Shown here piece by piece: positions 52,870-54,876 of a DNA stretch of 64,000 nt. Made by a program: the position numbers and the translations under genes. Each line of letters begins with the position of its first letter. Position 1 is the first letter of the stretch. The DNA comes from Cryomorphaceae bacterium 1068 (lineage in GTDB: Bacteria > Bacteroidota > Bacteroidia > Flavobacteriales_D > Cryomorphaceae): positions 124,001 to 188,000 of the forward strand of contig JAPVXR010000002.1 in assembly GCA_027214385.1 (NCBI GenBank), written 5' to 3'. The notes beneath the pieces are model-generated. The model was given only the letters and a program-made list of their open reading frames with translations, made no database searches and was not told the origin of the DNA.

Positions 52870-53001
52870 CTATGACTATTTGCGCTCTAATTATGGATTA
52901 GGAAGTGAGAGCTGATAAAATTAATGAATACATAAAAATAGACTCAATATGTAACGAATATAGCAATGAAAAGGTATAAACTATAAATTAGCACTAATCC
53001 T

Positions 53002-53117
53002 TGTAGGGTGATGAAACCGGCAGACATGCCCTCCTGTCTCGAGGGTGGAGGTAAAGAATAAATCAGCTCAGGCTGGCTAACTGCTCCTTGAAGGTTCGAA
53101 TCCTTCCCCTACAGCCA
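53002..53117 (+). tRNA. atypical tRNA-like gene with GUC anticodon and 44-nt variable region
   Basis: Folds as a complete tRNA of 116 nt: acceptor TGTAGGG/CCCTACA (7 perfect pairs), T arm GAAGGTTCGAATCCTTC, D arm ATG..CAT with A14, G18, G19 and A21, anticodon stem CCCTC/GAGGG, loop CTGTCTC, anticodon GTC (53036-53038). G73 and CCA are encoded. The D arm is Leu-like, but the variable region is 44 nt, with GGAG/CTCC pairing at its base and an inner hairpin CAGC/GCTG. Position 37 is U, not a purine. A strong terminator follows. I cannot tell whether it is charged by AspRS, SerRS, LeuRS or none. Confidence 0.75.
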
Positions 53118-53119
53118 AC

Positions 53120-53160
53120 AAGAAAGCGGCATCCGACTTATTCGGATGCCGCTTTCTTTT
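53120..53160 (+). terminator. strong terminator after the tRNA-like gene
   Basis: A 17-bp perfect stem (53120-53136 with 53142-53158), loop CTTAT, then TTTCTTTT. It starts 3 nt after the CCA. This supports the RNA being made as a transcript of its own. Confidence 0.9.
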
Positions 53161-53220: not shown

Positions 53221-54876
53221 CTATTCGTAGAAATTGTACTGAATTTGGAAAGTGATGTCATTAATTGGAATGTTTTCCGTATTCAAGGGATTAAACGCCT
53301 GCTTCACTCTGGTGAATGTAATCTGACCTTTGAGATAGGCATATCCTTGGGGACTCACTTCAAACTTGTAGAATAGGCTAAACTCTGGATCAGGATCACC
53401 TGCTTCATAGTCATTATCACTCGACTGATAAGTAGCCGAACCTGCAAAAGGACCATCTAAGAAACCTTCTGTAAGTTCTACTGTCGGAGGCACTGTAAGG
53501 CCCAATTCAAAACCCTCTACTTCTATAGGATCATCTCCGACTTCTACATTGTTTGGAGCAGGAATATAAACCTTCAGGATTCGTTGGAATGTTCCATTTG
53601 CTGTTTCTACTTGCTGAATTCCTTGAATTATGCGATATGCATTTTCGGGATTCGGAAATTGTCCCTGTGTGGGCCCAATGGTGAGAGCGTTGGGGACGAA
53701 AAGCGTATCCGGATCATTTGAATTGCCGGGAGCTATAGTACGATTAAAGAAGAACTGATCCGTGAATCCGGAACCATCAATATCGGCAATAAGGAATTGC
53801 TCACAAGATTCACATTCAGGACCTCCACAATCCACATCAAGTTCAAATAATTCTTCGTTCTGTATGAGGTCATGACAAGAAATACACTGAGGACATGAAC
53901 CTCCATCATATGGTGGAATGAAGTAGTCCACACAGTCAATGTCAAACTCAGGACCGTTTTGGATGCCATCTGAACATGTAGCACATGGAGGACATTCAGT
54001 CAGAGGATCATCATCACAATCTACACCGGTTTCATCACCGTCTTGGTAACCATTTCCACAAGCAGGAACAGGGTCGCAAGGAGGACAGCCATTGTTGTCA
54101 ATGTCATCACAATCAATACCTGTTTCGCTTCCGTTTTGCAATCCGTCAAAGCATGTCGGGATCGGACAATCAGGACATGATGTTTGGAAATCGTTGTCGC
54201 AGTCAGGACCTGTTTCTACTACCACCAGATATCCTTGAGGATTCTGAGGAGTAGGATCAATGTATTCTATATGGATATTTTGGATTCCATCGTTGCAGGT
54301 AGGAGTAGGGCAATCAGGACAACCCGGCGTACCGCAGTCGATTCCTGTTTCTTGACCGTTTTGAATACCATCGCCACAAGTAGGAGGGAAGCAAGTTGTA
54401 GGACAATTCGTTCCGCCACAATCTACACCTTGTTCGTCACCATTCATAATACCGTCATCGCAAGTCGCTACACAGAAAGTGTCACATGGAACACCACAAT
54501 CTACACCTTGCTCCAATACCAAACGCCACAAAACACCACCAGCCATACCAATGCTGTCGTTGGAGTTGAAATCAGCCATGGTTAAGTTCGGATCAAATTT
54601 CCAGTGAGCGTTCTGAATATTGTCGTTACAGGTTGCACATGGAACGCAATCTTCGCCACCACAATCAATAAATTGCTCAGTACCGTTTAAGACTCTATCG
54701 TCACAAGTGGGCAAACATTCGGGGCAAGGGCCACCACAATCGATGCCTATCTCGCCTTGATTTTTCACTTCGTCGAAGCAGGTAGGCTCAATTCTATTAT
54801 CTTCATTTCGGCATGAACTTAACGCAAAAGCCACAGAAGCAGTGATGAAGAGGAGTCTCAGTATTCTAAATTTCAT
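53221..54876 (-). CDS. Cys-rich lipoprotein with about ten tandem repeats
   Basis: 551 aa. Lipoprotein signal with lipobox ALSSC (Cys about 22). Residues about 32-365 contain some ten repeats of the form C-x-D/N-G-I-Q-N-G-x-E-x-G-x-D-C-G-G-x-x-C-x-x-C (for example CDDGIMNGDEQGVDCGGTNC). Two repeats have inserts of 20-25 residues. The C-terminal 185 residues are beta-rich and lack Cys. Acidic and Cys-dense, suggesting disulfide-bonded or calcium-binding modules outside the cell. There is no T9SS domain. I know of no function. Confidence 0.85.
   Translation of the reverse strand: MKFRILRLLFITASVAFALSSCRNEDNRIEPTCFDEVKNQGEIGIDCGGPCPECLPTCDDRVLNGTEQFIDCGGEDCVPCATCNDNIQNAHWKFDPNLTMADFNSNDSIGMAGGVLWRLVLEQGVDCGVPCDTFCVATCDDGIMNGDEQGVDCGGTNCPTTCFPPTCGDGIQNGQETGIDCGTPGCPDCPTPTCNDGIQNIHIEYIDPTPQNPQGYLVVVETGPDCDNDFQTSCPDCPIPTCFDGLQNGSETGIDCDDIDNNGCPPCDPVPACGNGYQDGDETGVDCDDDPLTECPPCATCSDGIQNGPEFDIDCVDYFIPPYDGGSCPQCISCHDLIQNEELFELDVDCGGPECESCEQFLIADIDGSGFTDQFFFNRTIAPGNSNDPDTLFVPNALTIGPTQGQFPNPENAYRIIQGIQQVETANGTFQRILKVYIPAPNNVEVGDDPIEVEGFELGLTVPPTVELTEGFLDGPFAGSATYQSSDNDYEAGDPDPEFSLFYKFEVSPQGYAYLKGQITFTRVKQAFNPLNTENIPINDITFQIQYNFYE

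Follow-up and report, generated by a model that had tools for sequence, protein, structure and literature searches.

The window, as we call the whole stretch of 64,000 nucleotides analysed from Cryomorphaceae bacterium 1068, carries a gene for a tRNA-like RNA that lies divergent to the gene of an AsnC-type regulator and is followed by an intrinsic terminator (Table 1). The region between the two genes holds a near, not exact, match (TAAATTAG) to the promoter-like motif TAnnTTTG. Further along, positions 53221-54876 of the minus strand encode a 551-aa Cys-rich repeat protein, probably a lipoprotein, without a Pfam or NCBIfam match, relatives of which occupy the same place in three genomes (G001, G004 and G005).

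Table 1. Features of the tRNA-like RNA gene and its flanks (positions within the window)
Feature	Position	Strand	Basis or remark
tRNA-like RNA gene, mature part including encoded CCA	53002-53117	+	cloverleaf covariation, 46 distinct homologues; best own match, model R1, 131 bits
Acceptor stem, 5' strand; pairs U1-A72 and G2-C71	53002-53008	+	both invariant in 59 model-only members
Acceptor stem pairing, UGUAGGG/CCCUACA	53002-53008/53107-53113	+	read from sequence
D stem, Leu-type D arm	53011-53013/53025-53027	+	read from sequence
Anticodon stem, arm CCCUC-CUGUCUC-GAGGG	53029-53033/53041-53045	+	read from sequence
Anticodon-like loop CUGUCUC	53034-53040	+	AspRS determinants kept, purine-37 absent
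G34, U35, C36; U37; C38	53036-53038; 53039; 53040	+	within anticodon-like loop
Variable region, 44 nt	53046-53089	+	stem covaries; internal loop conserved in family
Variable-region stem (4 bp); inner hairpin	53047-53050/53084-53087; 53063-53067/53072-53076	+	
Variable-region internal loop, GAAUAAA; CUAAC	53056-53062; 53077-53081	+	conserved in family
T arm GAAGG-UUCGAAU-CCUUC	53090-53106	+	pairs conserved
Acceptor 3' strand; G73; CCA	53107-53117; 53114; 53115-53117	+	G73 and C74 encoded in 148/148 members
Intrinsic terminator hairpin, 17-bp stem then T run	53120-53158	+	read from sequence
Divergent promoter region, asnC-like gene to RNA, 132 nt	52870-53001	.	spacing 127-330 nt in 94 loci
AsnC-type regulator, 155 aa	52402-52869	-	Pfam AsnC_trans_reg; best NCBIfam model AsnC

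The RNA belongs to a family missed by Aragorn and by Rfam at its cut-offs. Aragorn reported only a tRNA-Leu(CAA) in the window, no Rfam family was matched by the RNA at gathering score, and the Rfam tRNA model aligned with a T-arm fragment only (14 bits). Folding of the single sequence was uninformative (z -0.21, with a minimum free energy structure other than the cloverleaf). The case for the RNA fold therefore rests on comparison.

When 60 relatives were searched at the DNA level, close homologues came from five further genomes of the window's family, and partial homologues from other parts of the order. Ten homologues were aligned; each of the 25 named pairs is standard in 100% of their cells, and seven of these pairs are doubly changed. 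With a covariance model built from the ten members, 299 genomes of the order and 395 of the phylum were searched, and true members (about 85-136 bits, 109-203 nt) separated from ordinary class II tRNAs (at most 69 bits, 74-91 nt). Two loci fall outside this split, namely L063 (93 bits, 96 nt, short variable arm, other loop) and L153, which is among the named loci (79 bits, 212 nt). Across 46 distinct homologues, 24 pairs are kept in 99.7% of cells, and double changes affect 14 of these pairs and 105 cells; none of 500 shuffles was as good and slid controls reached 53-63%, in an alignment that was fitted to the model and therefore leans towards structure. In total, 148 good members were collected, with variable regions of 39-133 nt, and tandem as well as multiple copies were found. 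A pattern scan of named genomes yielded at least 119 stretches, and among the matches listed the titles were those of Bacteroidota, with the genera and groups Chitinophaga, Dyadobacter, Spirosoma, Algoriphagus, Cyclobacterium, Niabella, Emticicia, Saprospiraceae, one Flavobacteriales MAG and others. Collectively, these data define an undescribed, strongly covarying and widespread RNA family carried by many environmental Bacteroidota; full-text searches of openly licensed papers returned no prior description of it.

The original prediction of a complete tRNA fold with GUC, G73 and a 44-nt variable region is thus confirmed by covariation in homologues, and it had picked out the right nucleotides with GUC, C38, G73, U37 and a Leu-type body. 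The encoded CCA, which had been contrasted with the tRNA-Leu of the window, is present, but the tRNA-Leu(UAA) of the genome encodes CCA as well. Among the observations named in advance as speaking against the prediction were a lack of homologues and a normal tRNA-Asp(GUC) together with decay of this copy. Homologues turned out to be numerous in the covariance search of order and phylum, and a normal tRNA-Asp(GUC) does exist, but the homologues display constraint instead of decay.

Several other identities were considered and discarded. A decayed tRNA or pseudogene is ruled out by the covariation and the breadth of homologues. No match was obtained in phage or plasmid records, and a 21-base piece had no exact match in viral contigs, as regards a phage or plasmid tRNA. 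Stem lengths differ from those of tRNA-Sec and allo-tRNAs, and the architecture is not that of tmRNA.

Throughout the family the 7/5 cloverleaf is kept, with a conserved GG in the D loop and UUCGA in the T loop, and an encoded CCA is uncommon (16/148). The variable region consists of the covarying 4-bp stem, a conserved internal loop, typically with GGAUAAA on one side and CUAAC on the other, and a hairpin of varying length. This hairpin is capped by GGGUUGACCAC in 70 of the 148 members, a few of which have one base changed; GAGCUC or CCGG often takes its place in genera of the Cyclobacteriaceae. A deacylase, AspRS/GatCAB or AsnC could bind the internal loop or apical motifs. Promoter-like TAnnTTTG lies upstream of the RNA in 90/148 members, compared with 21 in shuffled sequence, and terminator-like sites follow the RNA in 113/148 (58 expected). 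In 32/148 members, for example L090 and L233, the RNA is preceded by a GTTCTT element (2.9 expected), in most cases at a distance of 10-13 nt, which resembles boxA of stable-RNA leaders.

Some loci deviate from this scheme. A reduced relative upstream of an AsnC homologue (L241 in G801, covariance score 31 bits) keeps the acceptor stem, T arm, G73 and GAAUAAA, with D and anticodon arms not recognisable. L063 (G292, 1501-1596) has a variable arm of normal length, the loop CUGUUUC and a tRNA-Thr-like gene just upstream; it may represent a transitional form that links ordinary class II tRNAs with the family. Two genomes that bear AsnB and are devoid of the RNA (loci L242 in G418 and L245 in G300) have, divergent to asnC, a short stretch with promoter- and terminator-like features and a common TATAATTGGTT, perhaps a relic or another small RNA. 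Copies away from asnC, several of them paired, are found in Cyclobacteriaceae and relatives (L083, L084, L103, L120, L125, L130 and L145); these have other apical loops (GAGCUC or CCGG), and several have a common GGTTATTTTGGGTTTATTGTTAATTGACTAAA tail before the terminator.

Nucleotide identities were counted in the 59 members found by the covariance model alone, because the pattern scan had fixed part of the loop. Strong determinants of AspRS are G34, U35, C36, C38 and G73, with G2-C71 as a minor one (PMC9976931, PMC6523644). U35, C36, C38, G73 and G2-C71 are each present in 59/59 members and G34 in 56/59; G73 extends to all 148 collected members, at a position where tRNA-Leu has A73. The first acceptor pair is U1-A72 in 59/59 model-only members and in 147/148 of all collected, and this is the pair recognised by bacterial GatCAB on the RNA whose Asp becomes Asn (PMC4206432). 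In the window's genome tRNA-Asp has G1-C72 and tRNA-Asn has U1-A72, as does the tRNA-Asn of another genome with the RNA, G305; both the G1-C72 pair and the class I variable loop of tRNA-Asp are missing from the family. Positions that matter for decoding are kept far less strictly, with U33 in 52/59 members, a purine at position 37 in 4/59 and A37 in 0/59 (U37 in the window RNA), compared with 32/32 for both U33 and purine-37 among the ordinary tRNAs found in the window's genome. Selection hence keeps the AspRS determinants and not the decoding positions. Judged from its nucleotides, the RNA appears to have a loop and a discriminator suited to accepting aspartate, together with an end competent for amidation, and these sit on a body that would be unfit for the codon.

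The genomic neighbourhood was compared across 128 loci, in 94 of which an AsnC homologue lies divergent to the RNA at 127-330 nt; about a quarter do not adjoin asnC. The window's regulator scores 194.7 bits with the NCBIfam AsnC model, under the cut-off of 227, and 50.8 with Lrp. AsnC was the best of all NCBIfam models for each of the 11 divergent gene products checked (150-195 bits, cut-off 227), that is, the window's own and ten homologues from other lineages. E. coli AsnC activates asnA, encoding asparagine synthetase A, and asparagine reduces this activation (PMC8707732). In one genome of the window's own family (G006), asnS, encoding asparaginyl-tRNA synthetase, is next downstream of the RNA, and in G777, where the RNA was not seen beside the AsnC homologue, asnB lies divergent to it. 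In G305 (C2:1309958-1317552), about 6 kb separate asnS (1316125-1317552) from the pair formed by asnC and the RNA, the latter at 1309958-1310120. A common palindromic AsnC operator was sought and dropped, the best palindromes in 94 intergenic regions scoring 6.93, barely above the 6.66-6.85 of shuffles.

From the identity signs and the neighbourhood, genomes with the RNA were predicted to have GatCAB and no asparagine synthetase. GatB was searched first, and its outcome prompted the tests for AsnB and AsnA. GatB was present in 36/36 genomes with the RNA and in 0/12 without it in the class sample (Fisher 1.4e-11, relatedness ignored), the RNA-negative set being hand-picked and this, like the other co-occurrence counts, not phylogenetically independent. 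The same division is seen within families, with 7/7 versus 0/3 in f14 and 11/11 versus 0/2 in f15. Taking all RNA-positive genomes, 48/49 have GatB, the exception being a fragmentary assembly (87% complete, 490 contigs). An AsnB orthologue was found in 0/48 RNA-positive genomes (0/36 in the class sample) compared with 9/12 RNA-negative class genomes, and AsnA in 3/48; therefore 45/48 RNA-positive genomes have neither. At least one asparagine synthetase is present in 10/12 RNA-negative class genomes, and G315 and G411 are without the RNA, GatB, AsnA and AsnB. Genomes with GatB and without the RNA are common outside the class sample, one of them (G002) in the window's own family, and may use the ordinary indirect route.

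Aminoacyl-tRNA synthetases were inventoried in one RNA-positive genome, G305, of which 2.38 of 2.85 Mb were read, all but the last 17%. AsnRS, GlnRS, one bacterial AspRS, GatA and GatB are all present, and GatCAB has no obvious translational job there because AsnRS and GlnRS are available. At the place where His and Gly are aligned in the Asp/Asn enzymes of Pseudomonas and a Mycobacterium, the AspRS of G305 has Phe and a shorter loop; that of Thermus shares the shorter loop and has Leu. Under the residue rule that we take to mark non-discriminating AspRS, and with the species of the aligned structures likewise assumed, this points to a discriminating enzyme in G305.

As the RNA is found with GatCAB and mostly without the ordinary asparagine synthetases, it is probably a dedicated carrier for asparagine synthesis. 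We consider it likely that the RNA is a non-translating tRNA, charged with aspartate by AspRS and amidated by GatCAB, that supplies asparagine under AsnC control. With slightly less assurance, we think that asparagine synthesis in a broad group of Bacteroidota takes place on such a purpose-built non-translating tRNA, which replaces asparagine synthetase and is controlled by AsnC. From the RNA family, identity nucleotides, synteny and co-occurrence obtained here, we infer transcription, charging, amidation, release and AsnC control as follows. Transcription of the RNA would start at the promoter divergent to asnC, and its processing would be that of a tRNA. AspRS would load it with aspartate, because GUC, C38, G73 and G2-C71 are present, and GatCAB would convert the bound Asp to Asn, because U1-A72 stands in place of the G1-C72 of tRNA-Asp. 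The resulting Asn would not be inserted at Asp codons, because purine-37 is missing, U33 is often lost and the variable arm is oversized; it could instead be hydrolysed off the RNA, or handed over, and so become available to AsnRS. RNA output would be matched to asparagine by AsnC, in the way known for asnA and AsnC of E. coli, and a cell without AsnA and AsnB could make asparagine while keeping a discriminating AspRS. Counted against this explanation are the loci that do not adjoin asnC, the three genomes with AsnA, the missing G34 in 3/59 members, L241 with its unrecognisable D and anticodon arms, the existence of RNA-negative genomes with GatB, the relatedness of the genomes counted and the hand-picked RNA-negative set, the replacement by U1-A72 of the G1-C72 pair that helps E. 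coli AspRS, and a G10 that is usually A; the internal loop and the lineage-specific apical motifs are also not accounted for by it.

The original prediction of a non-canonical tRNA is supported by the constraint in numerous homologues. Its other suggestion, a tRNA mimic with a regulatory role, is not favoured, the identity nucleotides, the co-occurrence with GatCAB, the lack of the RNA in genomes with AsnB and the asnC neighbour pointing to a metabolic carrier of asparagine synthesis. A related possibility is that AspRS, and perhaps GatCAB, acts on the RNA for regulation and not for asparagine supply, with the charged RNA informing AsnC or translation about the Asp/Asn or amidation state. The AsnC-type neighbour with its conserved divergent spacing would fit such a sensor, as would the internal loop GGAYAAA/CUAAC and apical GGGUUGACCAC, which look like binding sites. 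We nevertheless hold it to be unlikely: several loci do not adjoin asnC, and with AsnA and AsnB lacking in 45/48 RNA-positive genomes something must make asparagine, unless these bacteria are auxotrophs.

The RNA might also travel with GatCAB for another reason, for instance as a scaffold of an AspRS-GatCAB complex, while asparagine is made on ordinary tRNA-Asn via a non-discriminating AspRS. Such a route has been shown in Bdellovibrio (PMC4206432), the tRNA-Asn of both the window's genome and G305 has U1-A72, and genomes with GatB and without the RNA exist. However, G305 has GlnRS and AsnRS, its AspRS is without the residues of the aligned non-discriminating enzymes, and the AspRS and GatCAB signals of the RNA itself would be left unexplained, which makes this reading improbable. 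A base-pairing small RNA that uses its loops as mRNA seeds and the tRNA fold for stability and processing is, in our estimate, slightly more improbable still. Although promoter and terminator signals of its own and conserved unpaired loop motifs are what such an RNA would have, the complement of GGGUUGACCAC was not enriched in eight genomes, and U1-A72, G73, G2-C71, the AspRS nucleotides and the GatB/AsnB pattern are left without explanation. Least probable is a translating minor Asp- or Ser-tRNA with a long arm, charged by AspRS or, as allo-tRNAs are, by SerRS and decoding GAC/GAU: GUC is accompanied by U33 in most members and is common among allo-tRNAs (PMC7609411), and a class II body with G73 can acquire Ser identity, as A73G can switch Leu to Ser (PMC9976931), but purine-37 (4/59) and A37 (0/59) are rare or lacking, U33 is missing in 7/59, the genome has its normal tRNA-Asp(GUC), the variable region reaches 133 nt, and charging by SerRS would not be expected to keep U35, C36 and C38 invariant.

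If the RNA is indeed a non-translating carrier of asparagine synthesis, a tRNA would have been turned into a cofactor in the biosynthesis of a free amino acid, providing a tRNA-dependent route to asparagine without relaxing AspRS. It would also explain the retention of GatCAB in some bacteria that have AsnRS and GlnRS and are without asparagine synthetases, a puzzle described for 18 such genera with Bacteroidetes among them (PMC4206432). The predicted phenotype of an RNA deletion is a need for asparagine.

The proposed pathway resembles known systems in part. tRNA-dependent asparagine synthesis by non-discriminating AspRS, GatCAB and tRNA-Asn is known in Bdellovibrio, Staphylococcus, Deinococcus and Thermus. 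Aspartate on a U1-A72 RNA and its amidation by GatCAB, proposed here from sequence, would be common to both, as would cells without AsnA and AsnB and the possible presence of AsnRS. The carrier differs in being a separate RNA with an Asp anticodon that is not fit for decoding, and AspRS therefore need not be relaxed. Among ordinary tRNAs, class II tRNA-Leu of Bacteroidota is the best match of the covariance model (up to about 62 bits) and shares the D arm and the 2-nt link between variable arm and T stem, whereas the RNA has G73 instead of A73, U1-A72 instead of G1-C72, a GUC loop, a variable region of 39-133 nt and no purine-37. Allo-tRNAs (8/4 or 9/3, class II) likewise have a long variable arm, with GUC among their common anticodons, and those tested are active in translation in E. 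coli, where they insert mainly Ser or Ala. In contrast, the RNA described here has 7/5 acceptor and T stems, a Leu-type body and one conserved loop, occurs in another phylum and is tied to asnC and GatCAB; an eighth acceptor pair -1:73 is possible in many members (C or U at -1, 130/148), the T stem staying at 5 bp. In staphylococcal cell-wall synthesis, a non-proteinogenic tRNA-Gly is likewise retained for a metabolic role and impaired in translation; it differs in amino acid, purpose and phylum and is without a long variable arm. Finally, as in the asnC-asnA pair of E. coli, the gene of an AsnC-type regulator adjoins what we propose to be an asparagine-making function, with the difference that the regulated partner would be an RNA and not a synthetase.
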